Below, piece after piece: positions 10,420 to 34,471 of a stretch of 34,471 nt of DNA. The notes beneath the pieces are model-generated. The model was not told the DNA's origin. It made no database searches and worked only from the letters and a program-made list of their open reading frames with translations. The translations under genes and the position numbers were made by a program. Each line of letters opens with the position of its first letter. Within the stretch, counting starts at the first letter, position 1. The stretch is from Trinickia fusca (GTDB lineage Bacteria; Pseudomonadota; Gammaproteobacteria; Burkholderiales; Burkholderiaceae), in NCBI RefSeq assembly GCF_003628145.1, contig NZ_RBZV01000023.1:1-34471 (forward strand). Reading direction: 5' to 3'.

Positions 10420-10425
10420 CCGAAC

Positions 10426-16812: not shown

Positions 16813-17355
16813 CTATCTCGACAGTGACAGGAGATACTCTGCTAGACCTCCGTCGTCTGCCCACGCATCGGTCTCTGCTCGATCAATCCACTCCTCGCGC
16901 TCACTGTCACGCTTGAGTAATCTTCTGATTCCAGAAATTTCTTCGATCCAAGGTGTGGCTTCCAACTGTATTCGCGCGACTACCCATTCGACGAAAAGGT
17001 TCGGCATTCGTGGCATTCGATGCAGACGCTCCTTATAAAAGAACGGGTCGACGCCAAGCCATATTTCACCCTCCACCCATTGTCCGATTTTTGCAAATCT
17101 AGGCGGCCTGCTTTCGCTAAAGACCTTGACGCCGAAGTCTATGACCCACACTTCAGGGGTCGAAAATACTACTTGCGCCACGACGTCGTACCGGGAGGTG
17201 TCATTGTGTTTGCACCGCACTGCGCGCTCGTAGGACGGAGTCAATGCTGAACCACCGAACTCAAGCGCAAGCTTGTGCGACTCGCCGCGCTTGAAGTCAT
17301 CATAGTTTCCATCTTGAATAATCCACGCATTGAGACCAACAGTCAGCTCGTTCAT
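16813..17355 (-). CDS. Uncharacterised protein, first gene of a pair
   Basis: About 180 residues from ATG 17355 (MNELTVGLNAWIIQDGNYDDF). The open frame reaches back to 17736, but that part overlaps the YhcG gene and is Arg/Cys-rich, so it is not credible; a GTG at 17427 is a possible longer start. Strands such as YDVVAQVVFSTPEVWVIDFGVKVF and GQWVEGEIWLGVDPFFY suggest a compact beta-rich domain, followed by a charged helical tail. I know no family for it. It abuts the next gene as TAG-ATG. The pair follows the YhcG nuclease on the same strand, 190 nt downstream, and could share its transcript. Confidence 0.6.
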   Translation of the reverse strand: MNELTVGLNAWIIQDGNYDDFKRGESHKLALEFGGSALTPSYERAVRCKHNDTSRYDVVAQVVFSTPEVWVIDFGVKVFSESRPPRFAKIGQWVEGEIWLGVDPFFYKERLHRMPRMPNLFVEWVVARIQLEATPWIEEISGIRRLLKRDSEREEWIDRAETDAWADDGGLAEYLLSLSR

Positions 17356-17545
17356 TTCAAGGTAGTGATCAAAGGGGCGATTATCGCCAGAATCCGCTAG
17401 TTTCTGGGGATTGTTGACGATTTGCACTGCCCTGTCGAATGTCCCGGCCTGGCCGTCTACCGACCAACGGCGCCGCCTGCCCCGGCTTGGCTTTGTATCC
17501 AATGATTGGAAGTTACTGCCTCCCGGCAGTCTCGGTCGCTCGCAA

Positions 17546-20376: not shown

Positions 20377-22680
20377 TCAATACCCGTTCTGGATCGGGCG
20401 AAGCGGGTTATCGCTCGGCATGGTGCCTGGCGGCATCTGCAGCGATGCCGGCGGCGCTGTCGGTGCGGCGGGCGGCGCCGAGGGTGCAGGCGTCGGTGTC
20501 GCAGTGGCCGCAGCGCCGGGCTCTGCTTCGCCGCCCGTCTGCTCCGCTGCCGAAGGTGTGGACGATGTGGCCGGTGCGGTCGGTGTCGGCGCGGCGCTCT
20601 GGCCAGACTGTCCTGCGGGAACAGGTTGCGACGCGGGCGATCTCGAGAAGCGTCCACCGTACGGTTCGGGCGGCGGCGTCGTGCGCGGCGCCGGCGCCAT
20701 CTGCCCGAACGCGCCGTTCGACGGGGAGGGCAGTGCAGGAATCACCGCGGCACCCGCTGCCGCGGACGTGCCACCCGCGGCGGCGCCTACCGTGCCGCCG
20801 CCGACCATCCCGGGCATCTGTCTCGCCGCAGGCACCACGGACGTTTCCGTGCTCGCCATGACGGGATCCAGCCGGAGCTGGTTGGCCTGCACATTGACAT
20901 CGGTGCCAGACCACACCTCCTGCGTGTCCGCATCGGCTGCAAGCTGCGGCCGGATGATGTGCGGCGTGATCTGCAACACGATCTCGGTCTTGGCGTGATC
21001 ACCGTGGTGGTCGGAGAACAGCCTCCCCAGTACTGGCAACTGCCCGAGGCCAGGCACCTTGTCGGCAGTTCTGCGGTCCTCGTCCGAGATGAGGCCGCCG
21101 AGAATCTGGGTTTCACCATCCCGTAGGCGCAGACTCGTCGATGCGCTGCGTGTTCCGATCTGATAGGCGAGCGAATTCAAGCCCTGTGGATTGTTGCTCG
21201 AGATCGTATTCGTTATGTTGCTGACTTCGAGATTCAGCTGGATGCCGACGTCGCCGTCGCGATAGACCCGTGGCTCCACTTCGAGCTTGATGCCGACATC
21301 GAGGTACTGAATCATCTGCGTATAAGAGGGGCCGCTCGTGCTCGGCGTGCTGGAACTCGAAATCACCGGCACCTTGTCGCCGATCATGATCCGCGCCTTC
21401 TCCCGGTTGCGCGTCCTGATGCGCGGACTCGCAAGCAGATTCGCATCGGTATCGGTGAGCTTGAAGTTCGCCGTGGCCGAGAGGCTGCTGACATTCAGCG
21501 AATTCACCGGAAGATGATGCAGCAAGCCCCATGTATTCGCAGTACTCGGGGTCGACGCCGTGAACGAGTTCGGCCATTCGATGCCAAGATCGGAGAGGCG
21601 CTCGTGCGACACTTCCAGCACCTCGACTTCCATCATCACCTCGGGATCCGGCAGATCCTGCGCGGCGATCATCTCCTCGGCAACCTTGATCGTGTCCGGC
21701 GTGCCGCGAATGGTCACGGTATTCGCACGCTCGTCGATCACGACCTCCTTGATCTTCAGAATGCTCTTCAGCAACTGCTGGATTTGCTTGGCGTCGACGT
21801 TCGACAACTGAAACGTGCGTACCTTGAGTTCCTGATATTCGAGCTGCTTGGCAGGGGTTGCGGGGTAGATAAAAAGCGTAGTCGCGTTGAGCTGCTTCTT
21901 GTCGAGCTGATTCTGCATCAGGATCATGTCGACCGTGTCCTTCACCGACGCGTTCGTCACGAAGATCGTCGTCTTCAGATCGGCGCGGACGTCGCGGTCG
22001 AAGATCACGTTCAACCCCGTGGTGCGCGACAACGCTTCGAACACCATGCGCACGTTCGCGTCGCGAAACTGTAGTGTCACCGGCTTCTGCATGATCGACG
22101 AAGCAGCAAGCTGGTCATCCCGATCCGAACGTTGCTGCCTGAGCTTGCCGTCGAGTTCCTTTTGCATCTGCAGCGCGAGGGTGTTGGTCGGGCTCTCCAC
22201 CAGCACGCGATGCACGTGATCAGCCGCCTGTTCATAAGAGCCGCGCTTCATCATGCGGTCGGCCTCCTGCAGGACGGCCAGATTCTTGCGGTCCTGATCG
22301 ATCATCGCGCCGATCTTGCGTATACGCTCATTGGTCGGGTCGATCTCGTTCGCCATATGGAGTCTTTGGATCGCTTCGTCGAACTGGTAGTCCTGGCGGA
22401 ATAGATCGGCCTGGTCGAGCAGCGCGTTGACTTTACTGTTGCGCTGGTTCAGATAGTCGACTTTCACCTGCGCGTTGGTCGGATCGTCATGAATGTTCGG
22501 GACGTGCATGCAGCCGCCGAAGGCGAACACCGACACGGCGATCGCAAGCGCAATCGCACGCCTTCTCGCGACCTGCGTCGTGCCTGAGCACGGGACATGG
22601 AACAGGATGATTGGCGTGAGGCGTGTTGATGGGCCGCTGTCCCCGTCGCGGCTCACCCCTCGTGTACGTGAGGTTTTCAT
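20377..22680 (-). CDS. gspD: Lipoprotein secretin (GspD/PilQ/MshL-like)
   Basis: A 767-residue outer-membrane secretin, the exit channel of the system. A hydrophobic segment ends in a lipobox, FAFGGC, with Cys57 as the likely acylated residue. Residues of about 75-185 look like TPR-type repeats (YQFDEAIQRLHMANEIDPTN, GSYEQAADHVHRVLVESPTN). Then come an STN-like domain (VTLQFRDANVRMVFEALSRTTG), an N-type domain with DERANTVTIRGTPD, and the C-terminal secretin domain with VPGLGQLPVLGRLF. The tail after about 650 is Pro/Ala-rich. TPR-like repeats before the secretin are more like MshL-type or pilus secretins than classical GspD. The start overlaps the preceding stop by 4 nt (ATGA). Confidence 0.9.
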   Translation of the reverse strand: MKTSRTRGVSRDGDSGPSTRLTPIILFHVPCSGTTQVARRRAIALAIAVSVFAFGGCMHVPNIHDDPTNAQVKVDYLNQRNSKVNALLDQADLFRQDYQFDEAIQRLHMANEIDPTNERIRKIGAMIDQDRKNLAVLQEADRMMKRGSYEQAADHVHRVLVESPTNTLALQMQKELDGKLRQQRSDRDDQLAASSIMQKPVTLQFRDANVRMVFEALSRTTGLNVIFDRDVRADLKTTIFVTNASVKDTVDMILMQNQLDKKQLNATTLFIYPATPAKQLEYQELKVRTFQLSNVDAKQIQQLLKSILKIKEVVIDERANTVTIRGTPDTIKVAEEMIAAQDLPDPEVMMEVEVLEVSHERLSDLGIEWPNSFTASTPSTANTWGLLHHLPVNSLNVSSLSATANFKLTDTDANLLASPRIRTRNREKARIMIGDKVPVISSSSTPSTSGPSYTQMIQYLDVGIKLEVEPRVYRDGDVGIQLNLEVSNITNTISSNNPQGLNSLAYQIGTRSASTSLRLRDGETQILGGLISDEDRRTADKVPGLGQLPVLGRLFSDHHGDHAKTEIVLQITPHIIRPQLAADADTQEVWSGTDVNVQANQLRLDPVMASTETSVVPAARQMPGMVGGGTVGAAAGGTSAAAGAAVIPALPSPSNGAFGQMAPAPRTTPPPEPYGGRFSRSPASQPVPAGQSGQSAAPTPTAPATSSTPSAAEQTGGEAEPGAAATATPTPAPSAPPAAPTAPPASLQMPPGTMPSDNPLRPIQNGY

Positions 22681-23309
22681 TTACTGTCCTCTCGTGGAAT
22701 GGATACCACCTGTCTTTCGTGCAGCGGCAGATAGGTCAGCACCACGTCCGACTCCGACACCGACTCGACGAGATACTGGCTATCGATCACATCGCCAGGC
22801 GACACGATCAGCAACTGTTCACCGTTGCTGAGAAAAACCTGCGGCTTGGCCGCCTTTGCGTCGAGTTCCCCCACGTAGGTAAAAGGCACGGGAGGCGCAG
22901 TGGGGGGAGCGGGCCGCACGGGTGCGGCCGGCACTTCGACAGGAGGCGGCGGCGGAAGCCATGAAGAAGCCGTGAATGGATCGTGGGCCGATTCGACGGA
23001 AAGCGGCGCGCGCAACGAGGCGAGCTTCTGGTGGGGCGTCGCTGCTGCCGCGGTGGTGGCCTTAACGGCGGCCGCACCATGCGTCGCAGAGGCTGGCGCC
23101 GCAGTCTTCGCGGCCGCCTCGCCCGTAGGTGACAGGAGCATGGGGTGCATGGCAACTGGCCGTGCGTGCGCGTCGTTGCGATGCTGGCTGTCGAGCACGG
23201 CGACGTGCACCGGCGTTTGTGGCGCCGCGACCAGCATGCGACACACTGCCCCGGCGGCCGCGAATCCGCAAAACGCCATCAGCACACGCATGGGCAGAGC
23301 GGGTTTCAT
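22677..23309 (-). CDS. PilP/GspC-like periplasmic link protein
   Basis: A 210-residue protein with one N-terminal membrane helix (MKPALPMRVLMAFCGFAAAGAV), a long Ala/Pro-rich linker, and a C-terminal domain of about 60 residues (PFTYVGELD, then PGDVIDSQYLVESVSESDV) of the HR type found in GspC and PilP. It likely connects the inner-membrane platform to the secretin encoded just downstream. The open frame extends to 23933, but the upstream part is antisense-like Arg-rich sequence inside the PilO-like gene. The true ATG at 23309 overlaps the previous stop by 4 nt. Confidence 0.82.
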   Translation of the reverse strand: MKPALPMRVLMAFCGFAAAGAVCRMLVAAPQTPVHVAVLDSQHRNDAHARPVAMHPMLLSPTGEAAAKTAAPASATHGAAAVKATTAAAATPHQKLASLRAPLSVESAHDPFTASSWLPPPPPVEVPAAPVRPAPPTAPPVPFTYVGELDAKAAKPQVFLSNGEQLLIVSPGDVIDSQYLVESVSESDVVLTYLPLHERQVVSIPREDSK

Positions 23310-23881
23310 GGCTGGGTGTTCCGGTAAATCAGTTCGAAGCGCACCCGCGCGTCGAGAATATTGCCGTCCACCGCGGGACGCTCGACATGGATTTCCCGTA
23401 GCGCGGCATTCGGCACGCTGTTGAGCACTGACGCAAGAAAATGCCGGATCGCACTGTACTGATCCTTGACGGGCAACATCACCTGATAGCGCGTGAAGCG
23501 CGCGCCCGCATCCGTGTTCACTTGATACTCGGCAGACCCGAGTGTCAGATTGCTGCCGTGCGCCTGTTCGAATATCGACGCGATATCGTCCGCGCTTTGC
23601 GAAAAGCGCGGGAACAGTTCCGGCAAGGTGTCGAGCGCTACCGCGTCCACCTCCACACTGCGCGTGTCGGCTGGATGATGCGTCTTTGCCGCCTGCGCCG
23701 CCTGTGTGACCTGGGCCGGATCCCGCATCTCCTTCGTATCGGCATTCACGCTGGAGATCTCGGCGCAGATGAGGGCAGCCGCGCCGATCATCAGGCCGCC
23801 GAGGAGTCCGGGCAGGCCGAACGAGCGCCGTAACTCGAACCGCAGTGTCAACAGCCTGTCCCGCAGTTGATCCGCTTTCAT
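23306..23881 (-). CDS. PilO/GspM-like inner-membrane protein
   Basis: A 191-residue protein with a short cytoplasmic start, one membrane helix (LLGGLMIGAAALICAEISSV) and a periplasmic ferredoxin-like domain (FTRYQVMLPVKDQYSAIRHFLASVLNSVPNAALREIHVERP), the arrangement of PilO and of GspM. It should pair with the PilN-like protein encoded immediately upstream to form the alignment complex. It is linked to both neighbours by 4-nt ATGA overlaps. Confidence 0.82.
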   Translation of the reverse strand: MKADQLRDRLLTLRFELRRSFGLPGLLGGLMIGAAALICAEISSVNADTKEMRDPAQVTQAAQAAKTHHPADTRSVEVDAVALDTLPELFPRFSQSADDIASIFEQAHGSNLTLGSAEYQVNTDAGARFTRYQVMLPVKDQYSAIRHFLASVLNSVPNAALREIHVERPAVDGNILDARVRFELIYRNTQP

Positions 23882-24408
23882 GACTTTCTCCAGACGGCGG
23901 TGATCTGGAAACGAACCGGCTTGCCCGGCACATTGGTCTCGACCAGGTGCTCGTTGAGCACGGCTTCGCGCAGCAGCACGCTTCGCTGCAGATATTTCAG
24001 GTAAGCGATCATCGCGTCGACGTTCTTCGCTTCGGCCGTGATGCGAATCTGGCTCTGTGCAGGGTTCTGGTCGATGCCGATCAGCGCGACATCATGGTCC
24101 GGATAATCTTCTACGATCGAAAAGAGGTCCTGCCACGGCACCGTCAGTTCGCGCAGTATCGACAGGCTTTGCTTTTCCGCCAGCTTGGCGACCGGTGTCT
24201 GCGGTGGCTTCGCCGCGTGTTTCTGCGCGAACGTCCGATGCCGGACCGCATCGAGTTCCGCCTGCACGCGATCGTTCTCGGCATACGCATGCCAAAGCCA
24301 CGTGCTGCATGCGAGCAGCAATAGAGCGCCGGCGCACAGCAGGATCAAGCCGCTCGTCTCGGTGCGGACACGGCGCCTGCCGAAGTCGATTTCGAGGATC
24401 TGGATCAT
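23878..24408 (-). CDS. PilN/GspL-type inner-membrane protein
   Basis: A 176-residue protein: short cytoplasmic N terminus (MIQILEIDFGRRRVRTETS, the kind of peptide by which PilN binds PilM), a membrane helix (GLILLCAGALLLLACSTWLW), a coiled segment and a periplasmic ferredoxin-like domain with DHDVALIGIDQNPAQSQIRITAEAKN. This matches PilN-type proteins. It overlaps the PilM-like and PilO-like genes by 4 nt on each side. Confidence 0.82.
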   Translation of the reverse strand: MIQILEIDFGRRRVRTETSGLILLCAGALLLLACSTWLWHAYAENDRVQAELDAVRHRTFAQKHAAKPPQTPVAKLAEKQSLSILRELTVPWQDLFSIVEDYPDHDVALIGIDQNPAQSQIRITAEAKNVDAMIAYLKYLQRSVLLREAVLNEHLVETNVPGKPVRFQITAVWRKS

Positions 24409-25307
24409 TGCGCATAGTCCATCAGTCGACGCGCGGGCGAGCTGTCCGTCGCCGGTTGTGGCGGACGCACTGCAGCCGCAAAACGTGCTTCGAAGGGCGC
24501 CGGGTCGGTGTCGTTCCCGAACAGATAGATCGTGCAGTCTTCCCGCTTGAGGCCCGCTCGAGTTGCCGAGCGTTCGAACAGTTGCTCTGCCAGTTCGGCA
24601 AGCCGCGACGCGTTGTCCGCATCGCCGGGAAAGAGGCGCTGCGCATCATAAGCAGCCCAGCCGCGCCGCTCGATCATCACGGCCTGCATCAACTCCTCGG
24701 CGACGAACATCAGTAGCGCGTCGCCGCCCGCCACGATATCGATGCGATTGAGCATTTCCGGAAGACCCAGTTTCAAGCTGGAAATCCGGACATGCCCGGA
24801 GGCGCTCACTTCATGAATGCCGTCATGAAGCGCGCGGGACATGGCGCTCGCAAACAGCGCACGGCCGCCCTGCTGCACGCAGAAGCGCACCAGCAGCGAT
24901 TCGCCGTCAATCCCATAGGTATCGGTGAAATGGGCCAGTGCGATCTCTTCGAGTTCGCGCGCTCGCAGTGTGCGAAAGTCGCCGCGCAATATCGCGTGAT
25001 TGCCCCAGAAATCGTCCAGCACCACGTTTGCGTTGCGCGTCGACGACTTCGCCTCGCGGGGCGCTTTCTCATCTGCATCATCGGCATCGGCATCGGCATC
25101 GGCGCCGGGTGTGGTGACGAGCGCCGTGCGCAGCGCGTCGAGCAGACCCGACTCGGTGCCGTAGTGGTCATCGGGAATCGTGAAGCGGGCCGGCTCCGCG
25201 GACGGCTGGTGTTGGCGCGTGCGCCATAGTCCGGGCGCGCTTACTCCGACGACGATCTCGCGTGTACCGACTCCGATCGCAACCGAACTATTCAACCATC
25301 GTGACAC
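24405..25307 (-). CDS. PilM/GspL-like actin-fold protein
   Basis: A 300-residue cytoplasmic protein. It opens with SVAIGVGTREIVVGVSAPGLW, the first strand pair of an actin-like PilM/GspL fold, and has later strands such as GGDALLMFVAEELMQAVMIERRGW. It should bind the PilN-like peptide and the GspE ATPase. An Asp-Ala stretch (about 70-80) is encoded by four tandem CATCGG hexamers (25079-25102 on the plus strand). The GTG at 25307 has GAGGAG 7 nt upstream and lies 20 nt inside the end of gspE. Confidence 0.78.
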   Translation of the reverse strand: MSRWLNSSVAIGVGTREIVVGVSAPGLWRTRQHQPSAEPARFTIPDDHYGTESGLLDALRTALVTTPGADADADADDADEKAPREAKSSTRNANVVLDDFWGNHAILRGDFRTLRARELEEIALAHFTDTYGIDGESLLVRFCVQQGGRALFASAMSRALHDGIHEVSASGHVRISSLKLGLPEMLNRIDIVAGGDALLMFVAEELMQAVMIERRGWAAYDAQRLFPGDADNASRLAELAEQLFERSATRAGLKREDCTIYLFGNDTDPAPFEARFAAAVRPPQPATDSSPARRLMDYAQ

Positions 25308-27012
25308 GGTTGATCTCCTCGAGTGTCGTTTCGCCGCGCTTTACTAGCTCGACCGCGGCGACGCGCAGCGTCTGCATGCCGTAGCGCATCGCCGCAGCCT
25401 TGATGTGCCCGAGTGGCGCGCGCTCCGACAGCAGTTGCCGCAGCTCGTCGTTCATGCGCAGCGCCTCGGCGATCGCGCGCCGTCCGCGATACCCGCTGCC
25501 ACGGCATGCGGCACAGCCGGCGCCGCGGCGAAAGCGGTAGCTGCCTGCTGCGTCCGGGTCGATGCCCGAGCGGATGAGCGTCTCCTTGTCGATCGTGTCT
25601 TCGGTCATGCAGTCCGGGCAGCATTGCCGCAACAGGCGCTGTGCCACCACGCCATTGAGCGCGGAAACGAAGCTGTACGGATCGACCTCCATGTTGGTGA
25701 AGCGGCCGATCACGTCGAACACGTTGTTCGCGTGGACGGTCGTGAACACCTGGTGCCCGGTCAGCGCAGCCTGCACGGCGATCTGCGCCGTTTCCGGATC
25801 GCGGATTTCTCCGACCATGATCTTGTCCGGGTCGTGCCGGAGAATCGAGCGCAGTCCGCGTGCGAACGTGAGTCCCTTCGCTTCGTTGACGGGGATCTGG
25901 AGGATCTCCCCCAGCTGGTATTCGACCGGATCCTCGATCGTCACGATCTTCTCGAGGCCGTTGTTGATTTCCGTCAGAATCGCGTAGAGCGTCGTCGTCT
26001 TGCCGCTGCCGGTCGGCCCCGTGACGAGCAACATCCCGTACGGCATCGATGCGATCGCGCGCATGAAGCGCGTGTCGCCCTCCTGAAAGCCGAGGGCCTC
26101 GAGCGTCAGACCGCTTGCGGATTGCGAAAGCTGATAGCGGTCGAGGATCCGCAGCACCGCGTCCTCGCCGAACTGGTTCGGCATGATCGACACGCGGAAG
26201 TCGATTTCACGCCCCGCGTACTGCGCCTTGAAACGGCCATCCTGAGGCACGCGCCGCTCTGCGATATCGAGCTCGGAGATCACTTTCACGCGCGAGAGCA
26301 CCTGGTCCGCGACATCGCGACCCTCGGCACGGCCGACCACGGTGAGCACGCCATCCACGCGGCACTTGATCATCAACCCATTCGCACGGCATTCGAGGTG
26401 AATGTCGCTCGCCATCATCTTGAGCGCGTCGTAGATCGTCGAGTTGAGCAGCCTGACGACAGGACTGTCGTCGCTGCTGATGCCCTGCAGCGTCAACGCC
26501 AGCGAGGCCGGATCGACCGTGTTCTGGATCGGGTCGTCGAACGCGAGGGAGTCCATCGCGCGAACATCCTTTTCGCGCACGGCCAGATATGCATTGACGT
26601 CTCCTGCGCTGGCGAGCGCCCAGCTATACGGGACGCTAGGCTGCGAGCGCATCCGATGCTCGACCCAGCCGCGCGTGCGTGCATCGAGCGGATCGGCGAT
26701 CACGAACAGCAGCCCATTGGCATCGTTTGGATCGTGGAAACACACGCAGAGGCGCGTCGTCGCGTCGACGAACGAAATCACTTCGAAATCCGGTTCGAGC
26801 TGATTCAGCTCGCGCATACCGATCGACTTCATCCGGAATTGCGCAGCCAGTTGCACGCGCAGTTCGTCCGCGCTGAGCGAGGTCTGGGCCATCAGCTCCT
26901 CGAGGGCGCGGATTCCCGAACCATGCCGCTCGCCGAGCGCTCTCAGCGCGTCGCGCAGATCCGCGCGCGCTTCGGCTTGAAGGCCTTCCGGTAGGGTGAT
27001 GACGGTATCCAC
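25288..27012 (-). CDS. gspE: Secretion ATPase GspE
   Basis: A 574-residue hexameric ATPase that powers pseudopilus assembly. After an N-terminal domain (about 20-150), the order is: an Asp box ASDIHLE (201-207), Walker A GPTGSGKT (332-339), Walker B GEIRD (401-405), a His box TGHQVFTTVHANN (418-430) and a tetracysteine zinc site (C465-x2-C468 and C500-x2-C503). All the motifs of an active GspE/PilB-family ATPase are intact. The start is GTG at 27012, preceded by a GGGGGA-type site. It is followed by the actin-like gene with a 20-nt overlap. Confidence 0.95.
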   Translation of the reverse strand: MDTVITLPEGLQAEARADLRDALRALGERHGSGIRALEELMAQTSLSADELRVQLAAQFRMKSIGMRELNQLEPDFEVISFVDATTRLCVCFHDPNDANGLLFVIADPLDARTRGWVEHRMRSQPSVPYSWALASAGDVNAYLAVREKDVRAMDSLAFDDPIQNTVDPASLALTLQGISSDDSPVVRLLNSTIYDALKMMASDIHLECRANGLMIKCRVDGVLTVVGRAEGRDVADQVLSRVKVISELDIAERRVPQDGRFKAQYAGREIDFRVSIMPNQFGEDAVLRILDRYQLSQSASGLTLEALGFQEGDTRFMRAIASMPYGMLLVTGPTGSGKTTTLYAILTEINNGLEKIVTIEDPVEYQLGEILQIPVNEAKGLTFARGLRSILRHDPDKIMVGEIRDPETAQIAVQAALTGHQVFTTVHANNVFDVIGRFTNMEVDPYSFVSALNGVVAQRLLRQCCPDCMTEDTIDKETLIRSGIDPDAAGSYRFRRGAGCAACRGSGYRGRRAIAEALRMNDELRQLLSERAPLGHIKAAAMRYGMQTLRVAAVELVKRGETTLEEINRVTMVE

Positions 27013-27031
27013 GCGCGTCCCCCGATACGTT

Positions 27032-28234
27032 CTACTGAATGCTCGACGCGATTTCGAAGATCGGCATGTACATCAGCACGACGATGCCGCCTATCACCAC
27101 GCCAATGAAGATCATCATCGCGGGCTCGATCAGTCGCGAAATCAGATCGATCGTGCGCGACACCTGCGCCTCCTGGAAGGCCGCAATCCGATCGAGCACC
27201 GGGCCGAGCCCCCCCGTCTTCTCCGCTACCGTCAACAGACGGTACGCGATGGTGTTGGCGAGCCCCGCTGCCTGAAACGCATCCGAGACCTTCGCGCCGT
27301 TGCGCACCTGCTGCAGCGCGCTGGCGAGCGCAACCTGGTCCGCGCGTCCGACCAGGCCTCGCGCAAGGTCGAAAGCCTTCACTGCGGGGATGCCGCCGTC
27401 GACGAGCATGGCCGTCGTGCGGTAGAACTGCGACTGGCGAAAAACACGGAAGTGTCGTCCGATACCGGGCAGCGCCAGCAAGCGATCGGCGATCCAGTTC
27501 CGCACGAACGAGCGGCGCAACGCGAAGCCTGTCGCCGCGGCCAGCACCGCGAGGCCGAGGGTCAGCTCGGACCCGTGCGCGTGCACCATGCCGCCCCAGG
27601 CCATCAGCAGGCGCGATAGCAGCGGCAGCTCGCGCCCGCTGTGCTCCAGCAGGCTGGCGAAGCGCGGTACAACGAACCCGAGCAGGAACAGGACGACGGC
27701 CGCGCCGACGAGCAGCAGGACCGTCGGATAGATCGCCGCCGACACCACCCTTGCACGCAGCTCATGGAGTGTCGCGCTGTTGCGCGAGTAACGTGTGAGG
27801 CTGTCGGCGAGACCGCCGGTCTGCTCGCTCGCCTTCACGCACGCAACCAGCACCGGCGGGAATATATGGCTTGCGTGCTCGAGCGCCGCGGACAGCGATT
27901 GTCCTTCTTCAAGTTGGCGCAAGAGGTCGCGATACACTTGCGCCGACGTCTCCCGGTGTTCATTGCCGCCAAGCGTGCGCAATGCATCGACGACACCCAC
28001 GCCCGCGTCGAGCAGCGCGGCGAGCTCGCGGGCAAAGAGTTCGACGTTGAACCGGGCGCGGCGTATCCCGAGTCGGTTCACACGATGCCGCTGCCGGCCG
28101 CCGTCGGCGCGAACCGACACGACGCGCAGGCCGCGGGCGCGCGCGAGCGCCGTGGCGGTCGTCGACGAATCGCTGTCGATGCGAAGCGTCTGGACCGAGC
28201 CATTCGTATCGAAGACACGCAGCACATACTTCAC
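27032..28234 (-). CDS. gspF: Inner-membrane platform protein GspF
   Basis: A 400-residue GspF/PilC-type protein with the two typical repeats of a cytoplasmic helical domain and hydrophobic segments at VVSAAIYPTVLLLVGAAVVLF, ELTLGLAVLAAATGFAL and PAMMIFIGVVIGGIVVLMYM. The motif ELAALLDAGVGVVDAL and LPLLSRLLM are family-typical. The GTG at 28234 is supported by AGGAGA 6 nt upstream; the open frame continuing further upstream overlaps gspG and is Arg-rich nonsense. It should anchor GspE and the PilM-N-O complex in the inner membrane. The gap to gspG is 52 nt and to gspE 19 nt. Confidence 0.92.
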   Translation of the reverse strand: MKYVLRVFDTNGSVQTLRIDSDSSTTATALARARGLRVVSVRADGGRQRHRVNRLGIRRARFNVELFARELAALLDAGVGVVDALRTLGGNEHRETSAQVYRDLLRQLEEGQSLSAALEHASHIFPPVLVACVKASEQTGGLADSLTRYSRNSATLHELRARVVSAAIYPTVLLLVGAAVVLFLLGFVVPRFASLLEHSGRELPLLSRLLMAWGGMVHAHGSELTLGLAVLAAATGFALRRSFVRNWIADRLLALPGIGRHFRVFRQSQFYRTTAMLVDGGIPAVKAFDLARGLVGRADQVALASALQQVRNGAKVSDAFQAAGLANTIAYRLLTVAEKTGGLGPVLDRIAAFQEAQVSRTIDLISRLIEPAMMIFIGVVIGGIVVLMYMPIFEIASSIQ

Positions 28235-28286
28235 GTCGACTCTCCTTGCAGAGCACCCACCACCGGCGCGGCCGCGCCATGCATCC

Positions 28287-28781
28287 CTACCATGACGAGA
28301 TCGTGACGTTCTCGCCCGAGCCGTCGCCGCGCCCGTTCTTGCCAAGCGAATACAGGTCGTAGTCCCCGTGGTCACCCGGCGAGCGGTACTGATACGGGCG
28401 ATCCCACGGATCCTCCGGCACCGCCTTCTGCAGATACGGGCCGCTCCAGTGGGTGGCATTCTGCGGCTTGGCCACGAGCGCCTCCAGACCCTCTTCGGTC
28501 GTCGGATACACGCCGACATCCAGTCGATATTGATCGAGCGCCTGGCCGAGCGACACGATTTGCGCACGCGCGATCTTGACGTTCGACTTGCCGACTTGTT
28601 CGAAATATCGGGGGGCGACGAGACCGGCCAGCAATCCGATGATGACCATCACGACGAGCAGCTCGAGCAGCGTGAAGCCGCGGCTCGCACGCGCGCGTGC
28701 AGCAAGGCCGACGTCATGCCATGACGGCTCTGACTCGCTCTCCTGCATGCCGCGTTGGATAGAGGTCGATTCGCTATGCAC
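28287..28781 (-). CDS. gspG: Major pseudopilin GspG
   Basis: A 164-residue major pseudopilin, first gene of the operon. The prepilin peptidase site is RGFTLLELLVVMVIIGLLAGLVAPRYF, with cleavage after Gly35 and Glu at mature position 5. The globular domain has the GspG hallmarks: DVGVYPTTEEGLEALV, WSGPYLQKAVPEDPW, and the Asp-rich calcium-binding end DHGDYDLYSLGKNGRGDG. The start at GTG 28781 has GGGGGAAG just upstream, which gives an unusually long 35-residue leader; an ATG at 28748 has no such site. Its own promoter is the conserved architecture at 28832-28899. Confidence 0.93.
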   Translation of the reverse strand: MHSESTSIQRGMQESESEPSWHDVGLAARARASRGFTLLELLVVMVIIGLLAGLVAPRYFEQVGKSNVKIARAQIVSLGQALDQYRLDVGVYPTTEEGLEALVAKPQNATHWSGPYLQKAVPEDPWDRPYQYRSPGDHGDYDLYSLGKNGRGDGSGENVTISSW

Positions 28782-28831
28782 GGCTTCCCCCCGTATCGAC
28801 TCACCGCTTCAGCATCGCTGAAGCTGTTGAA

Positions 28832-28899
28832 TGCATTCTTGTTCAGGTCGATACGGCCAAGAAGTAGGGAGTGCCGTCCAAAGACATGGGTAAAGACCC
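28832..28899 (-). promoter_or_regulatory. Conserved three-block promoter of gspG operon
   Basis: On the minus strand: GGGTCTTTACCCATG (28899-28885), 15 nt, CCCTACTTC (28869-28861), 18 nt, ACAAGAATGCA (28842-28832), then 50 nt to the gspG start codon. The same three blocks with the same spacings occur before the DUF1269-like gene (34335-34268). The outer block is an inverted repeat (GGGT/ACCC), fitting a dimeric regulator; AAGAAT in the last block could be a -10 element with CCCTACTTC near -35. The functional assignment is inference; the conservation is directly seen. Confidence 0.7.
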
Positions 28900-28930
28900 T
28901 CCAGTTGCAGCGTCCCCGTCTGGAGGGATT

Positions 28931-29605
28931 TCACATATGCTCGTCGTCGGGCAACGTCAGCACGCCCATGTCGATCGCTAGACGCACGAGGCCGCTCAGA
29001 TTCCGGATGCCGAGCTTGCGCATCAGGTTCGCCCGGTGCTTTTCTATGGTTTTCGGGCTGAGACTCAGGCACTCGCCAACCTGCCGGTTGGTGTGTCCCT
29101 CGACGACCAGCCTGAGTACGGTACGCTCGCGGCCAGTCAACGCGTTCCACAACTTCGCCCTGCGCGCGATGTCCTCCCGTGATCCGTGCGCGTCTGCGCA
29201 GATCCGGTTGGCATCGGCACCGGCCATGCGTTTGCCCTGCATCACGAAACGCATCTCCCGGACCAGCTGGTCGAACGATGCGTCCTTGACCATGTATCCG
29301 TCGGCACCGGCGGCAAACGCCTCCCGTACATGGTCTTCGCTCCAATGAACGGTCAGGACGATGATCCGTATGCGCGGGGCGTCGCGCTTGATGGCGGTGA
29401 TCGCCTCGAAGCCGCTGCCACCCGGCATCGTCAGATCCATCAAGATCAGATCGGGCTGCGTCTCCCCGGCGAGGCGATGCGCTTCGATCCCGCCGCTCGC
29501 CTCGCCGACGATGCAGTAGTCGTCCAGTTCGGAAACCATGCGGCAAAGGCCGCTGCGCAATAGATGCTGGTCCTCGGCAATCAGCACGCGATGTTTTATT
29601 CCCAA
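28931..29605 (-). CDS. NarL/FixJ-type response regulator 1
   Basis: A 224-residue two-component response regulator. The receiver domain (1-120) has the acidic pair Glu11-Asp12, phospho-acceptor Asp57 in LILMDLTM and Lys in VKDASF. The LuxR-type helix-turn-helix is at about 150-210 (LTGRERTVLRLVVEGHTNRQVGECLSLSPKTIEKHR). It is paralogous to the regulator at 31744-32523. The TTG start at 29605 has AAGGAG 8 nt upstream. It lies 37 nt after the sco gene and 149 nt before gspG on the same strand, so it may share the sco transcript and control gspG. The partner kinase is probably the soluble histidine kinase at 30564. Confidence 0.92.
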   Translation of the reverse strand: MGIKHRVLIAEDQHLLRSGLCRMVSELDDYCIVGEASGGIEAHRLAGETQPDLILMDLTMPGGSGFEAITAIKRDAPRIRIIVLTVHWSEDHVREAFAAGADGYMVKDASFDQLVREMRFVMQGKRMAGADANRICADAHGSREDIARRAKLWNALTGRERTVLRLVVEGHTNRQVGECLSLSPKTIEKHRANLMRKLGIRNLSGLVRLAIDMGVLTLPDDEHM

Positions 29606-29642
29606 TTTCGTCGCTCCTTGCTGGACGCTGCGCGCCCAGGGC

Positions 29643-30278
29643 CTAGTCAGAAGCGACCACGTCGTGATAGGCGGCGAGCAGTTCCGACGGTGTGGCGAAG
29701 CCGTCGATGCGCAACCAGGGCTTGCCGGGCGCGGCGCGCAGGAACGTAACCGGCGTGTGGTTCATCTTGTCGCCCCGATAGACGTTGAACGCGCGCTGTG
29801 CCGCCATGCTCGCCTCGACCGTGCCGGTATAGTGCTGCCATTCGGGGCCTGCTTCGAACCTGGCCGCATAGGCTTTGAGCCGGGCAGGCGTGTCCTCTTC
29901 CGGATCGATCGAGATCGACACGATGTGGACTTTGCCCCGGTCGCTGCCCAGATCGCTTTGCAATTTCTCGAGCGTCTGGCTGATCATCGGGCAGATGGTC
30001 GTGCAGGTGGTGTAGATGAACGTCAGGATCACTGGCCGGCCATCGTTCAGCTCGTCGACCAGCGAGACGGCCTTGCCGTCATCGCGCACGAGTTCGACCG
30101 AGGGCAGCGTGTACTGGGCCGTCGTGCGCGTCGTCATGCCCGCCATCATGTGATGATGCATGTGAGGATCGGCAACGGCCGCGGCGTCCTCGGCAGGTGC
30201 GCACCATGCCGCCGTTGCCGCGAGCGCGGCGCCCGTCAGCACGAACGCGCCGATCCTCGATTTTGCAGTTCTGTTCAT
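29643..30278 (-). CDS. Sco1/SenC-type copper chaperone
   Basis: A 211-residue Sco protein that delivers copper to, or reduces, the cytochrome oxidase copper site in the periplasm. It has a signal segment (GAFVLTGAALAATAAWCA), the thioredoxin-like domain with the copper motif Cys92-x3-Cys96 (TTCTTICP) and the conserved His174 in MNHTPVTF. Residues 39-48 (HMHHHMMAGM) form an extra His/Met-rich stretch between signal and fold that could bind copper. The ATG at 30278 has GGAG upstream; the open frame to 30479 before it is not supported. It is divergent from the histidine kinase gene. Confidence 0.93.
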   Translation of the reverse strand: MNRTAKSRIGAFVLTGAALAATAAWCAPAEDAAAVADPHMHHHMMAGMTTRTTAQYTLPSVELVRDDGKAVSLVDELNDGRPVILTFIYTTCTTICPMISQTLEKLQSDLGSDRGKVHIVSISIDPEEDTPARLKAYAARFEAGPEWQHYTGTVEASMAAQRAFNVYRGDKMNHTPVTFLRAAPGKPWLRIDGFATPSELLAAYHDVVASD

Positions 30279-30563
30279 ACCGGTCTCCAGAAACGAGAAG
30301 AAAGGTCTCGCTGCGCGATGCGAAGGCGCGCGGCGCTGTCGCCCTCTCGCCACTGCAGTGTCATGAATTTGCCGGCACGCGTCATTGGATGAGGGACCCC
30401 AAACGACGGTAGGGTATGCCCGCTTGATGGAAAGCCCGCACTGCGCAACCGGGATGTCCCCACACCGCGACCCTATCAATCCCCCGTTGTGGCGTGCCTG
30501 AATCGCGGCCTACAATCCCGGAAGCCTTACGATTTTCTTATGTGGACCCATCGGGATGCTCCA

Positions 30564-31697
30564 ATGGATGAAAGCCAGCCAGGGGGACCGCAGGTAAGAT
30601 TGCTCGATCTGATCGAAGCAATGCGCAAGCTTCGTAGCGGGGCCCAACCCAGCCAACCCGACGCCTGCGTCGTCACCGACCCGCACGGAGCAGCGCTCGC
30701 GATTCTCACGCCCGATGGGACTTTCGTGTCGGCAAACCGCAGCGCCGCAGCGCTGCTCGGCTATTCGAGCGCCGAGCTCGTCGGCAAGCGCCTCGTCGAC
30801 CTTGCGCCCGACGACTTTCGCGCCGCACTGGCAGGCGAATTGTCCGCGAGCGCGGTTCGCGAGTTTCATTCGTTCGGTGCGGTGCTCAGCGGCCGGGCGG
30901 GCCGTCCAATGCGGCTTGCGCTGCATCAACAACGCTTGGCCGGGAGGCAGACGGATTCGATCGTCTTGCTGACGCTGTTCGAAGAGCTGCTGATCGTCGA
31001 GCCCAGGCTCGCCGACCCGGCTGAACTGGTCGATGCAAGCGAGCGGTTGTGCCAGACGTATCTGATGCTGGGCCAGCAGCAGGAACGCCAGCGTCTTGCG
31101 GCGGAGTTGCACGATGGCCTCGGCCAGGCATTGACCCTCGTCAAGCTGATGACGGAGGACGCACTGATGCGCATACGCCGCGGGCAGGTCGGCGATGCGG
31201 CGAAACTGCTCGATGCGACCGTGTTCAGAGTTCGCGAAACGATCGGCGAGGTGCGGCAGATATGCGCCGAACTGCGGCCGATCATGTTGGACAAGCTGGG
31301 GTTGCCTGCGGCATTGGATTCGCTGTGCCGGCGCATCGAGCACGGCACGGAAGCGATGTCGGTCGTGTTCGACTGCGATGTCGCGGATGAGGACGTGCCT
31401 GAGCATCTGAAGCCGGACATGTTCAGAGTGGCTCAGGAGGCGCTGAACAACGCCGTCAAGCATGCCGAGGCTACGGAAATCTCCCTCAGCCTGCGGCGTG
31501 ATGCGGGCGGCTTGCGGTTGACGATTCAGGACAACGGCATCGGCTATGAGAGCCATCCGCTTGCCACAGAAGATGCGTATACGACCGGGTTGGGCCTGAT
31601 CGGCATGCAGCACCGCGTCGAGATGCATGGCGGCGCGTTCTCGATCGAGTCATCCGCCACCACGGGTACCCGCGTCTGCGCGACCTGGATGCTCTAG
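30564..31697 (+). CDS. Soluble PAS-domain histidine kinase (NarX-like)
   Basis: About 377 residues from ATG 30564, chosen for GGGA upstream; ATG 30540 and GTG 30489 would be longer. There is no membrane segment. A PAS domain follows (about 40-120: LAILTPDGTFVSANRSAAALLGY), then a HisKA_3 dimerisation helix with the phospho-acceptor His183 in ELHDGLGQALT, and a HATPase_c domain with N box EALNNAVKHAEA, DNGIGYE and GLGLIGMQHRVEMHGG. This is a NarX/DegS-type kinase that should phosphorylate NarL-family regulators such as the two encoded beside it. The signal sensed by PAS is unknown; no haem-ligand His pattern is evident. Confidence 0.92.
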   Translation: MDESQPGGPQVRLLDLIEAMRKLRSGAQPSQPDACVVTDPHGAALAILTPDGTFVSANRSAAALLGYSSAELVGKRLVDLAPDDFRAALAGELSASAVREFHSFGAVLSGRAGRPMRLALHQQRLAGRQTDSIVLLTLFEELLIVEPRLADPAELVDASERLCQTYLMLGQQQERQRLAAELHDGLGQALTLVKLMTEDALMRIRRGQVGDAAKLLDATVFRVRETIGEVRQICAELRPIMLDKLGLPAALDSLCRRIEHGTEAMSVVFDCDVADEDVPEHLKPDMFRVAQEALNNAVKHAEATEISLSLRRDAGGLRLTIQDNGIGYESHPLATEDAYTTGLGLIGMQHRVEMHGGAFSIESSATTGTRVCATWML

Positions 31698-31724
31698 GGC
31701 CCGTTCACGCCAATAACAGGCCCT
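31696..31724. terminator. Possible bidirectional hairpin
   Basis: AGGGCC (31696-31701) and GGCCCT (31719-31724) form a perfect 6-bp stem with a 17-nt loop, between the convergent ends of the kinase and regulator 2 genes. The stem begins inside the kinase stop codon. There is no clear T-run, so this is tentative. Confidence 0.25.
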
Positions 31725-31743
31725 CGCACTGTCCTCGTCGCGC

Positions 31744-32523
31744 TCAAGGTCCCGCATCGCCGAGCCTGTATTCGGGCAGCTCGCCCCCCGGGCTGGAGCC
31801 GGGCGCCGGATTGGAGCGTTTCGGCAAGTGCTCATCGTCCACGTTCGGCTCAGCACACTTGGCGGCGAGCGAGGTCAGCAGGCCCATGTTCATCGCGACG
31901 AGAACCAGTTCCGTCAGATTGGCGATATGGAGCTTGTGCATCATGCTGGCGCGATACTTCTCGATCGTCTTCGGACTCAGGTTCAGGTATTGCCCGACCT
32001 GCCGGTTGGTGCGTCCTTCCGCGATCAGCTTCAGCACGCTGCGCTCGCGCGCCGTCAGCACGTCCCAGGCATGCTTCGGTGCGGGCGCTTCGCGGCCGCT
32101 GACGAACGAGTCGACCATGTACCCGTACACGTCTGCGCTCAGATGTTTCTTTCCCTGCATGACGGAGCGCATCGCGACCAGCAGCTCGTCGAACGATACG
32201 TCCTTCAGCACGTAGCCGTCGACGCCGGCACGCAGCGCTTCCCGCACATACTCCTCGTTTTGATGCACCGTGAGCGCAATGATCCGCACGCTCGGCGATC
32301 GCCGTTTGATCGTCGCGCTGGCATCGATGCCATTCATCCCCCGCATCGACAGATCCATCAGGATCAGATCAGGGGTGAGCGCCATCGCCTGCTGGCAGGC
32401 TTCCTTGCCGTCTCTTGCTTCGCCGACGACGTCGTAGTCGCCTTGCGCACACAGCATCGAACGTAGTCCATTTCGCAGCAGATCGTGGTCCTCTGCGATT
32501 ACAACGCGATATTTGATATTCAC
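31744..32523 (-). CDS. NarL/FixJ-type response regulator 2
   Basis: A 259-residue response regulator closely similar to regulator 1: Glu11-Asp12, Asp57 in LILMDLSM, Lys in LKDVSF, and the LuxR-type helix-turn-helix LTARERSVLKLIAEGRTNRQVGQYLNLSPKTIEKYR. The shared TNRQVG and SPKTIEK helix suggests overlapping DNA targets. It carries about 30 extra C-terminal residues (AAKCAEPNVDDEHLPKRSNPAPG), not part of the usual fold. The GTG at 32523 has a GGGGGAAAG-type site upstream. It converges with the kinase gene. Confidence 0.92.
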   Translation of the reverse strand: MNIKYRVVIAEDHDLLRNGLRSMLCAQGDYDVVGEARDGKEACQQAMALTPDLILMDLSMRGMNGIDASATIKRRSPSVRIIALTVHQNEEYVREALRAGVDGYVLKDVSFDELLVAMRSVMQGKKHLSADVYGYMVDSFVSGREAPAPKHAWDVLTARERSVLKLIAEGRTNRQVGQYLNLSPKTIEKYRASMMHKLHIANLTELVLVAMNMGLLTSLAAKCAEPNVDDEHLPKRSNPAPGSSPGGELPEYRLGDAGP

Positions 32524-33073
32524 GTCTTTCCCCCAGCTCCACCGCTCCCGGTCGCGACGATCGGCTCAACGATTTGACGCTATTCCTGCCGTTCGTAAAG
32601 CCTTCACTTTTGTTTTTTAATCCCTAAGTGTTTGCTTCACGTTTCCGTCGAACGACTGCGGTGCGTCTGCCATTCGCAAGGTTCACGCCGCCTCTCTGCA
32701 AGCGAGCAACGGCGCGTGTCTCCGCATTTCCGGATATTTCGGGAGCGCACCGGATGTCGAAAAATGTTTCAAATTTGAATTCTTTTGATTGTTACCGAGG
32801 ATTAGTGTCGCTACCGATGGCGTGAAAATCACTCGCTTTTGCTCGCCAGAGGGAAATGAATTCGTGACGATGCAGCGAGGTGAGAATAGTTCGGTCGTGG
32901 CACTTGATGGTTGATTTATTACCGTTAATTTCAGCGTATTACCGTCCGTTACGGACGTAAAGTTTCTGTACTGGGCAACGCGGTAGCCATTTCACGCCTC
33001 AAAGTGTAGGGAGGCGCCCCATTGCTGATCCGTTTTTTCTTACACCACAATTCAGGTGCAGGAGAACACGAAG
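32524..33073. other. AT-rich regulatory gap
   Basis: No gene is evident between the divergent starts of regulator 2 and the transglycosylase. It is AT-rich compared with its neighbours, and contains a perfect 12-bp palindrome TTCAAATTTGAA (32769-32780), and the TATTACCGT repeats listed separately. Confidence 0.5.
32917..32960. promoter_or_regulatory. TATTACCGT repeats and inverted repeat, possible operator
   Basis: TATTACCGT occurs at 32917-32925 and 32937-32945, 20 nt apart (two helical turns). The second copy leads into an inverted repeat: TTACCGTCCG (32939-32948) faces CGGACGTAA (32952-32960). It lies about 110 nt upstream of the transglycosylase start. An array of sites for a DNA-binding protein is plausible; which one is unknown. 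Confidence 0.4.
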
Positions 33074-33706
33074 ATGCATTGCCGCCCGTCATCCAGGTTG
33101 GGAAACGCGATCGTTGCCGCATTCGCGATGCTCGGCGCGGTGTTGCCGGGAACTGCGCTCGCACAGATATTTGGCGGCGTCGACAGCAACGGGGCAATCG
33201 TTCTCACGAACATGCCGGGCAAGCCCGGATTGAAGGTCATCGTTGCGGACCACCCGCCAGGCGAACCTGGCGCGAAGCGCACGTCCCGCAAGTCAGCCGG
33301 CAGCGCTCAGCGCTCCTTGTTCGCCGATGTGATCGATGAGGCCAGTCGCTCCTTTCGCGTTCAGTCCGAACTCCTTCGTGCGGTAATCGACGTCGAATCG
33401 GGATACAACCCGAAGGCCGTGTCGGACAAAGGTGCGCTGGGACTGATGCAGTTGATGCCGGATACCGCCCGGCGCTTCTCGGAAGGCGACATGCTCAATC
33501 CACGAGACAACGTGTTGGCCGGCGCACGCTATCTGCGATTCCTCCTCGATCTGTTCAAGGGCGATGTAGAGCTCACGCTGGCCGCTTACAGCGCCGGAGA
33601 GAATGCCGTGATTCGCGCCGGCTATCACATACCGCCGCTGCCGGAAACACGTCTGTACGTTCCGCGCGTGCTCGCGCGTTACAGGCAGCTTCTCGCGTCC
33701 AGTTGA
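33074..33706 (+). CDS. Lytic transglycosylase (SLT domain)
   Basis: A 210-residue exported lytic transglycosylase that cuts peptidoglycan glycan strands. A signal peptide ends near ALA-QI (residue 30). A short DUF4124-like segment (IFGGVDSNGAIVLTNMP) follows, then the SLT domain with catalytic Glu108 in AVIDVESGYNPKAVSDKGALGLMQLMPDTA and AYSAGENAVIRAG. Such enzymes often open the cell wall for envelope-spanning machines, so a link to the secretion operon is possible but not shown. The ATG at 33074 has GGAG upstream. It ends 5 nt before the convergent DUF1269-like gene. Confidence 0.92.
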   Translation: MHCRPSSRLGNAIVAAFAMLGAVLPGTALAQIFGGVDSNGAIVLTNMPGKPGLKVIVADHPPGEPGAKRTSRKSAGSAQRSLFADVIDEASRSFRVQSELLRAVIDVESGYNPKAVSDKGALGLMQLMPDTARRFSEGDMLNPRDNVLAGARYLRFLLDLFKGDVELTLAAYSAGENAVIRAGYHIPPLPETRLYVPRVLARYRQLLASS

Positions 33707-33711
33707 GCACT

Positions 33712-34221
33712 TCACGGAAACGCGGGAATGGTCGGGTCCGTTCCAGCGATGTGCGCTTCCGCGTGATGAGTCTTGATCATCTGTTCGATCTCTTCCACGC
33801 GGTCCTTCGGAACGTCGATCATCATCAGAAGCTCGCCCCGATGGATCCCTTTTTCGAAGCGCTTCAATCGCGTGTTCGGCACACCGACGCCGATCATCGA
33901 GGCCGTCCATGCGCCGAATCCCGCGCCTGAAAGCGTGATGGTCACCACAGCACCGCCAGCGATCGTGAGGTCCTCGGGCGGAAAAACGAGTGCAATCAGC
34001 GCCATCAACATCCCGGTCGCGCAGCCCGCTACTGTGCCTCGCGCCAGCGACGGCAGCAGGTCGCTGCGTTGCGCGAGCGAGGCTTGCGGCAGGCCAACGA
34101 TTGACACCTTCTCGTTGGCGATGACATGCATATGCCGCCACTCGACTCGCTGCAACAGCAGTTCGTCGACGATCGCCCGCGCACACTGTGTGGAGGGCAA
34201 CAGAAAATACATGCGTCTCAT
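33712..34221 (-). CDS. DUF1269-like membrane protein
   Basis: A 169-residue protein. The N-terminal part (MRRMYFLLPSTQCARAIVDELLLQRVEWRHMHVIANE) and the last part (GELLMMIDVPKDRVEEIEQMIKTHHAEA) are beta-alpha modules as in DUF1269-type proteins; between them are two Gly-rich membrane segments (GTVAGCATGMLMALIALVF, GGAVVTITLSGAGFGAW). Function is unknown; relatives are linked to stress responses. The ATG at 34221 has GGAG upstream. Its promoter shares the three-block pattern with gspG. Confidence 0.78.
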   Translation of the reverse strand: MRRMYFLLPSTQCARAIVDELLLQRVEWRHMHVIANEKVSIVGLPQASLAQRSDLLPSLARGTVAGCATGMLMALIALVFPPEDLTIAGGAVVTITLSGAGFGAWTASMIGVGVPNTRLKRFEKGIHRGELLMMIDVPKDRVEEIEQMIKTHHAEAHIAGTDPTIPAFP

Positions 34222-34267
34222 GTCGGTTACTCCAACTTTGCATGGGGCTCGCACCGAGCCCCGTGAT

Positions 34268-34335
34268 TGCATTCTTGTCCGGGCGCAAGCAGGCTTGAAG
34301 TAGGGCGGCTAGCCGAAATGCATGGGTCGAGACCC
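34268..34335 (-). promoter_or_regulatory. Conserved three-block promoter of DUF1269-like gene
   Basis: On the minus strand: GGGTCTCGACCCATG (34335-34321), 15 nt, CCCTACTTC (34305-34297), 18 nt, ACAAGAATGCA (34278-34268), then 46 nt to the ATG at 34221. The outer block agrees at 13 of 15 bases with the gspG copy, and the inner two are identical. The GGGTCTCGACCC core is also an inverted repeat. Confidence 0.7.
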
Positions 34336-34356
34336 GTAGATATCCTTTCGTTATCC

Positions 34357-34471
34357 TCACAGGCTGCCGTAGCTATGCAGCCCCGACAGGAACATGTTCA
34401 CGCCGAGGAAAGCAAACGTCGTCACGAGCAGGCCCGTGAGCGCCCACCAAGCTGCAACGGTGCCGCGCAGC
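34357..34471 (-). CDS. ccsB: Cytochrome c biogenesis protein CcsB (3' end only)
   Basis: The window contains only the last 37 complete codons and the TGA. The translation ends WWALTGLLVTTFAFLGVN, then MFLSGLHSYGSL, a membrane helix and the end I associate with CcsB/ResC-type cytochrome c haem lyase subunits of beta-proteobacteria. The rest lies to the right of the window. The stop is 21 nt before the outer block of the DUF1269-like promoter. Identification from the C terminus alone is good but not certain. Confidence 0.75.
   Translation of the reverse strand, partial: LRGTVAAWWALTGLLVTTFAFLGVNMFLSGLHSYGSL

Follow-up and report, generated by a model that had tools for sequence, protein, structure and literature searches.

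Two promoters in the Trinickia fusca genome, one before a compact type II secretion (gsp) operon and one before a DUF1269-like gene, share a 68-bp signature of conserved blocks, and this is a constrained promoter signature linked to a regulator, the NarL-type response regulator RR2. The conservation of the sites, their spacing, their recurrence and their co-occurrence with RR2 are established by computation, and RR2, with its kinase (HK), is the likely activator of both promoters. The best explanation of the whole, which we hold with reasonably good confidence, is that both sites are one activator-dependent sigma70-type promoter that is activated by RR2 via HK and drives the gsp operon and the DUF1269-like gene. 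The signature probably marks an undescribed control circuit for the secretion machine: the regulon is new, its NarL-type two-component kind is already known, and no description of motif or regulon appears in the titles and abstract openings of the literature searched, a scope in which subscription papers were largely absent.

In the window, the whole stretch of DNA that was analysed (34,471 nucleotides), the gspG-operon promoter signature lies at 28832..28899 and that of the DUF1269-like gene at 34268..34335, both on the minus strand of one contig with their starts (28899 and 34335) 5,436 bp apart. Read on that strand, both 68-bp sites match GGGTCTnnACCCATG-N15-CCCTACTTC-N18-ACAAGAATGCA exactly. 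The gspG site, read directly and recovered by the whole-genome pattern and by a profile (E = 8.9e-17), consists of block A (28899-28885, GGGTCTTTACCCATG), block A' (28882-28874, TTTGGACGG), block B (28869-28861, CCCTACTTC) and block C (28842-28832, ACAAGAATGCA); the DUF1269-like gene site (profile E = 1.5e-13) has the same blocks and spacing, with A at 34335-34321, B at 34305-34297 and C at 34278-34268. From the end of block C it is 50 nt to the GTG start codon of gspG (28781) and 46 nt to the ATG of the DUF1269-like gene (34221). Each site occupies a short intergenic gap: the first between gspG and the gene for a second NarL-type regulator, RR1, and the second between the DUF1269-like gene and a cytochrome c assembly gene, whose relative in stretch L054 has PF01578. 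An earlier note on this DNA had given the coordinates, strand, blocks, 15- and 18-nt spacers and the 46-50 nt to the start codons, all of which are confirmed; it had counted three blocks where we find four. The addition, A', is the conserved stretch TTYGGCGRG (columns 18-26) between A and B, in which T20 and G25 are kept in 22 of 23 sites and G22 and C24 in 21 of 23.

The two sites are the only matches to the pattern in the whole 6.1-Mb genome at up to three mismatches, the tolerance that the earlier note had proposed, and the reversed control has none. At the same tolerance the window holds the two sites only, and 100 shuffles of it hold none; a 23-site profile (model R1) found both sites in the genome, with the next match at E = 0.708. 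The two 68-mers agree at 46/68 columns, and when the window is compared with itself, on the same strand and without gaps, two diagonals outscore the pair, reaching 53/68: one starts at 29235/32153, within the RR1 and RR2 genes, and the other at 19736/28630, the second position within gspG. We give almost no credence to the idea that the sites are a functionless relic of recent duplication or gene conversion, to which their identity and their place on one contig, 5.4 kb apart, might point. Each site is kept with its own gene across genera while the flanks diverge, and the signature recurs on other contigs; diverged flanks and gene-specific conservation contradict a recent duplication of the two sites, in keeping with the earlier note's argument against a recent duplication of the whole region.

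To relatives we applied a 24-letter core, which has 51 matches in 40 of 398 family genomes and none when reversed. In the 39 loci L001-L039 there are 38 sites, 35 directly before a GspG gene, two before a DUF gene and one (L029, genome G040) before neither; this last match has no profile support and is probably chance. Mean pairwise identity among gspG promoters, averaged over 12 chosen sites from seven genera with the G766 row left out, is 0.81 in block A, 0.90 in B and 0.93 in C (its first nine columns), against 0.38 in the upstream and 0.36 in the downstream flank. The blocks thus differ from their surroundings (81-93% against about 37%) as expected of constrained elements, which the earlier note had taken them to be. 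The two spacers stand at 0.64 and 0.49 over the same 12 sites, the first being higher because A' lies inside it, and among 12 chosen DUF promoters A' is the most conserved part (0.86).

A scan of named genomes for RR2 gave 64 loci. The gspG site is present in all 35 that have RR2 at 74% identity or more (Paraburkholderia, Burkholderia, Trinickia, Pararobbsia), several of which are training-site genomes (for example L147, which is G043), so that this count is partly a repeat; none of the other 29, with 23 RR2 relatives at 38-44%, mostly in Comamonadaceae, and six weaker matches, has any profile match at E <= 1. Absence of the blocks upstream of the orthologous genes, the observation that the earlier note had named as speaking against it, is therefore not what the relatives display. 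Relatives of the DUF gene occur in 23 of the 35 loci, with a clear site in 19 and a marginal one in L167 (E = 0.077); in G345, G434 and G172 (the set L149, L150, L181) the DUF gene has no site, and a different gene lies upstream of it in place of the assembly gene. Training genomes recur in the later counts also, which are not independent of the profile. Paraburkholderia nodosa DSM 21604 (L148) has both sites, one site was found in Cupriavidus metallidurans CH34 (G331), and L009, a 24-kb stretch with a Variovorax relative of the gsp operon, lacks the motif, RR2 and HK. An A-A'-like stretch in G023 (L106) has no clear target, inspection of L107 (G325) yielded no assignment, and G043 has two further weak profile matches (C48, C117).

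RR2 (31744..32523, minus strand) joins a receiver to a GerE/LuxR HTH (PF00072, PF00196), and its predicted partner HK (30489..31697, plus strand) joins PAS, HisKA_3 and HATPase_c domains (PF07730, PF02518, PAS). With presence set at E <= 1e-80, RR2 is found in 41 of the 398 family genomes, the motif in 40 and both in 38 (Fisher p = 4e-47, a nominal value as the genomes are related). Two genomes have the motif alone, G040, where it lacks profile support, and G453; three have RR2 alone. Among these three, G005 (E = 0.0036) and G201 (E = 0.0013) have a variant gspG site that is one base longer. In G351, which holds an RR2 relative, the motif is absent at E <= 0.05, and the 18 kb surrounding this RR2 contain neither a kinase gene nor gsp genes. 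An order-wide sample of 399 genomes has the motif in two, the window's own and G766 from another family, and RR2 in the same two; in G766 the site precedes gspF-E-...-D, and the HK-RR2-SCO genes lie 30 kb away. HK adjoins RR2 in G766 and in the RR2-bearing gsp clusters examined, with only its C-terminal half matching in G005. That genome (L103) has two copies of RR2, at 7412-8071 and 17064-17723 and ~9.7 kb apart, each with 75% identity to the query; next to the second copy there is no more than a short fragment of a kinase.

With few exceptions RR2 adjoins the gsp operon, and its co-occurrence with the motif is therefore in part linkage. Such strong linkage would also be seen if the motif were read by some other factor with its gene elsewhere, such as a global regulator or an alternative sigma factor, and RR2 merely travelled with the gsp cluster, and the site before an MXKDX-type gene in G453, which has no close RR2, would suit that explanation. 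We nonetheless think it unlikely: motif and RR2 both persist in G766 though 30 kb apart, the motif is absent from 355 of the 357 sampled family genomes without RR2, and an inverted repeat such as that of block A is better suited to a dimer than to a sigma factor. RR1 (28931..29605, minus strand; NarL-type by Pfam) is a second candidate, either as the binder itself or as one half of an RR1/RR2 heterodimer, with RR2 controlling something else; it adjoins the gspG promoter in most clusters, directly upstream as in the window, and all 35 named loci have both regulator genes. This we judge quite improbable, as the motif is kept without a separate RR1 in six clusters: G307, G201, G005, G766, where no RR1 was found, and G331 (L008/L048) and G430 (L049), the two Cupriavidus genomes that lack it. 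Because RR1 is missing there, only RR2 of the two regulators seems needed. The earlier note had pointed to both NarL-type regulators nearby, and this is supported for RR2, which tracks the motif across genomes; RR1 seems not to be required.

RR2 and its kinase have the domains of a NarL/FixJ-family two-component system (receiver and GerE HTH; HisKA_3 and HATPase_c), as do NarX-NarL type regulons such as that of E. coli NarL. Unlike E. coli NarL, RR2 falls below the cut-off of the curated NCBI NarL equivalog model NF007935 (149.9 against 250 bits), and here the targets comprise a secretion operon and genes probably of copper/redox function rather than nitrate respiration. The best solved relatives of RR2 by sequence are VraR and NarL, VraR leading and DevR sixth in the list.

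A dyad at column 6.5 of block A reaches 0.644 against a shuffled-column 95% level of 0.601 and is the sole dyad above that level; the second half-site, A'+B, has no significant dyad in the same test. The left arm GGGT is lost or altered before the DUF1269-like gene in 17 of the 43 genomes scanned with the profile, their matches starting at columns 4-8, and the TACCCATG half is therefore the more constrained half of block A. The inverted repeat that the earlier note saw in this outer block is thus present as a dyad but is not strictly conserved. Sites of the DosR kind are G/C-armed inverted repeats, which the GGGT-N4-ACCC of block A resembles; its arms and spacing differ from those of the DosR box, and hypoxia control is not indicated. 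NarL heptamers take a 7-2-7 head-to-head arrangement, unlike the heptamers here. Block A holds a heptamer, TACCCAT, that fits the published NarL/NarP consensus TACYYMT (PMC4886647, available portion); the consensus fits column 8 in 17 of the 23 sites and column 34 in 10, with no fit on the opposite strand. We also considered the low-oxygen lxa-locus motif of B. cenocepacia and set it aside, as it is not shown in the available portions of PMC4603805, PMC3759415 and PMC9104464.

Within AAGAAT at columns 60-65, A61 and T65 are invariant in 23/23 sites. An A and a T at these two -10 positions are key for -10 function. A 17-bp spacer sets a poor -35 (TTCTTG) against block B, and a sigma70 scan found no promoter at the sites, as expected from so poor a -35. 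Block C would accordingly serve as a sigma70-like -10, with block B abutting the poor -35, a layout that suggests an activator-dependent promoter; given the -10 so placed, the centres of block A and of A'+B would fall near -65 and near -45 respectively, a distance of two helical turns.

We infer RR2 binding, activation rather than repression, the positions of the -10 elements and starts, and the substrate and signal, and propose the following mechanism. At both sites, taken as the same activator-dependent sigma70-type promoter, RR2 (31744-32523), phosphorylated by the kinase at 30489-31697, would bind the block A region at TACCCATG/GGGT and probably a second, lower-symmetry site downstream, running from TTYGGCGRG into TCCCTACTT (A'+B, ~20 bp, two helical turns). 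The bound activator would sit against the poor -35 and recruit RNA polymerase to block C, with its conserved -10 (cAAGAATg), and transcription would start near 28828 and 34264. The predicted targets are the compact type II secretion operon and the DUF1269-like gene, joined in some relatives by a cupredoxin and a small secreted protein of the MXKDX type. Genes for a multicopper oxidase, an SCO1 protein and c-type cytochromes accompany the module, which therefore probably serves to build an extracellular system of electron transfer or of a copper enzyme.

Just past the predicted start, the gspG leader holds an 8-bp hairpin with a 3-nt loop (28806..28824, minus strand; fold z -1.65). Of 35 orthologous gspG leaders, 28 fold with z < -1 relative to mononucleotide shuffles, and the hairpin changes in pairs among orthologues, for example from GCTTCAGC/GCTGAAGC to GCTTCGGC/GCCGAAGC. 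A conserved hairpin so close to the blocks could mean that the element acts in RNA, as a leader or riboswitch, and not as promoter DNA. We consider this very improbable and reject it: Rfam gives no match up to E = 0.5 in 28000-34471, the hairpin lies 3' of the blocks, and it is not a feature of the DUF leaders as a class (19 folded, mean z -0.17), the window's own DUF leader folding at z -3.0.

Taking the signature as promoter DNA, its first target is headed by the major pseudopilin GspG (28287..28781, minus strand; PF08334, and TIGR01710 above cut-off). The rest of the predicted operon (20377..28567, minus strand) encodes GspF (T2SSF), GspE (T2SSE), three proteins that match nothing in Pfam and a GspD-like TPR secretin, in an order kept in relatives. 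The Pfam domains T2SSG, T2SSF, T2SSE and Secretin occur together, as in type II secretion operons; the window's secretin does not pass TIGR02517, and the genes appear to form a single operon. The second target (33712..34221, minus strand) is only weakly assigned as DUF1269-like, its match to PF06897 (E = 0.0011) lying below the Pfam cut-off.

One element with fixed spacing, before more than one gene per genome and kept in relatives, is what we find, and the regulon that the earlier note had suggested is borne out by recurrence of the signature before MXKDX-type and cupredoxin genes in relatives. Sites precede a small secreted protein starting MNKLTA in six genomes, G172, G429, G046, G453, G307 and G430; in an NCBIfam scan covering the G453 and G430 proteins, the former passes TIGR02953, the pentapeptide MXKDX repeat protein model (49.1 against 41 bits), and the latter falls below its cut-off (20.3 bits). 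The site is near the gsp cluster in G307 and G430 and on a different contig from it in G172, G429 and G046, which bear RR2. Sites also precede a cupredoxin-domain protein in G313 (PF13473, E = 5.7e-8) and its look-alike by eye in G338, both RR2-bearing genomes with the site on another contig than the gsp cluster; the assemblies are drafts, and the distance between site and cluster is sure only on the large contigs of G429 and G313. The training set included the sites of G307, G453 and G313; those of G172, G429, G046, G338 and G430, outside it, were found by the profile at E = 2e-5 to 0.005. Most RR2 genomes have no site beyond those of gspG and the DUF gene. In G453 the 16 kb retrieved with the MXKDX-gene site (L042, 9428-9493) contain no gsp genes, and the genome has neither a close RR2 (best 39%) nor the multicopper oxidase; the site is a candidate orphan, or may answer to another regulator of the same specificity. 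In G766 a cupredoxin-like gene, similar by eye and without a Pfam hit, lies alongside the site.

The neighbouring genes indicate what the regulon may serve besides the secretion machine. The cluster holds an SCO1/SenC-family protein, of a copper chaperone/redox family (29643..30278, minus strand; PF02630, E = 3.3e-22), HK, RR2 and a lytic transglycosylase, and clusters of relatives add genes for cytochrome c, a cytochrome c assembly protein and a multicopper oxidase. A 567-aa multicopper oxidase lies on another contig (C39) in the window's genome. Of 15 genomes chosen for comparison, 13 have a relative, G351 and G453 being the exceptions; a search of 190 family genomes at E <= 1e-100 gave 13 with a relative, every one of them RR2-positive. 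The oxidase carries Cu-oxidase domains, scores below every curated NCBIfam cut-off and has no better than marginal sequence matches in the PDB; the oxidase genes in stretches L054, L055 and L057 have no promoter signature. Because the oxidase tracks RR2, copper/redox chemistry is indicated rather than the coupling to an envelope or stress gene that the earlier note had suggested; SCO1, cytochrome c with its assembly protein, multicopper oxidase and cupredoxin all speak for redox/copper biology. Judged by these neighbours, the regulon probably serves copper or redox proteins besides the secretion machine. Adjoining the oxidase genes is a giant protein of ~2,750 aa, in L054:8604-16880 (G059) and L055:9737-17980 (G429), which may be a partner of the dedicated secretion system that is secreted or lies at the surface; the L054 protein (2758 aa) has only cadherin, SdrD and Ig-like hits.

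MnxR is an NtrC-type regulator, unlike RR2, which is NarL-type. In Pseudomonas putida GB-1, MnxS1/MnxS2-MnxR control is associated with Mn(II)-oxidising multicopper oxidases (PMC8218464, available portion), and two-component control associated with multicopper oxidases is the likeness to the system here. The oxidase here has Cu-oxidase domains and co-occurs with RR2, and may or may not be a Mn(II)-oxidising enzyme of the MofA/MnxG/McoA kind.

In the ten other genomes of the window's genus the motif is absent at up to three mismatches (G005 has its variant site), and in its spacers the window's gspG site is almost the same as that of Trinickia mobilis (G043, L147); horizontal transfer of the module is therefore likely. 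The gspG-F-E-...-D gene set, with the motif, is also present in L008, from the CH34 megaplasmid (2,580,084 bp), which would correspond to the accessory gsp cluster Rmet_4704-4713 with the same gene set. For the smaller gsp cluster on CHR2 of CH34, lateral transfer has been suggested (PMC2864759), and the available portion of that paper describes no promoter or regulator for it. Elsewhere in the window, four consecutive plus-strand genes (8040-15088) include one for a 1155-aa SMC-like ATPase; we take these genes to resemble a Wadjet/Jet-type plasmid-defence operon.

A wider reading, which we offer tentatively as possible though short of probable, is that of a horizontally moving Burkholderiales module in which a PAS-kinase/NarL-type circuit of its own, reading a rigid four-block promoter, controls a dedicated type II secretion system together with redox proteins and a secreted copper oxidase. 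Regulator and DNA signature would travel together and capture unlinked genes, such as those for the MXKDX-type protein and the cupredoxin, to form a self-contained extracellular oxidation regulon.

The motif offers a test of when and why this accessory Burkholderiaceae type II secretion system is made. It names RR2 as the candidate regulator and ties the secretion system to a multicopper oxidase, SCO1, a cupredoxin and an MXKDX-type protein. A long signature of near-fixed spacing that tracks one regulator across genera is, moreover, a model for how a circuit and its DNA sites move together.
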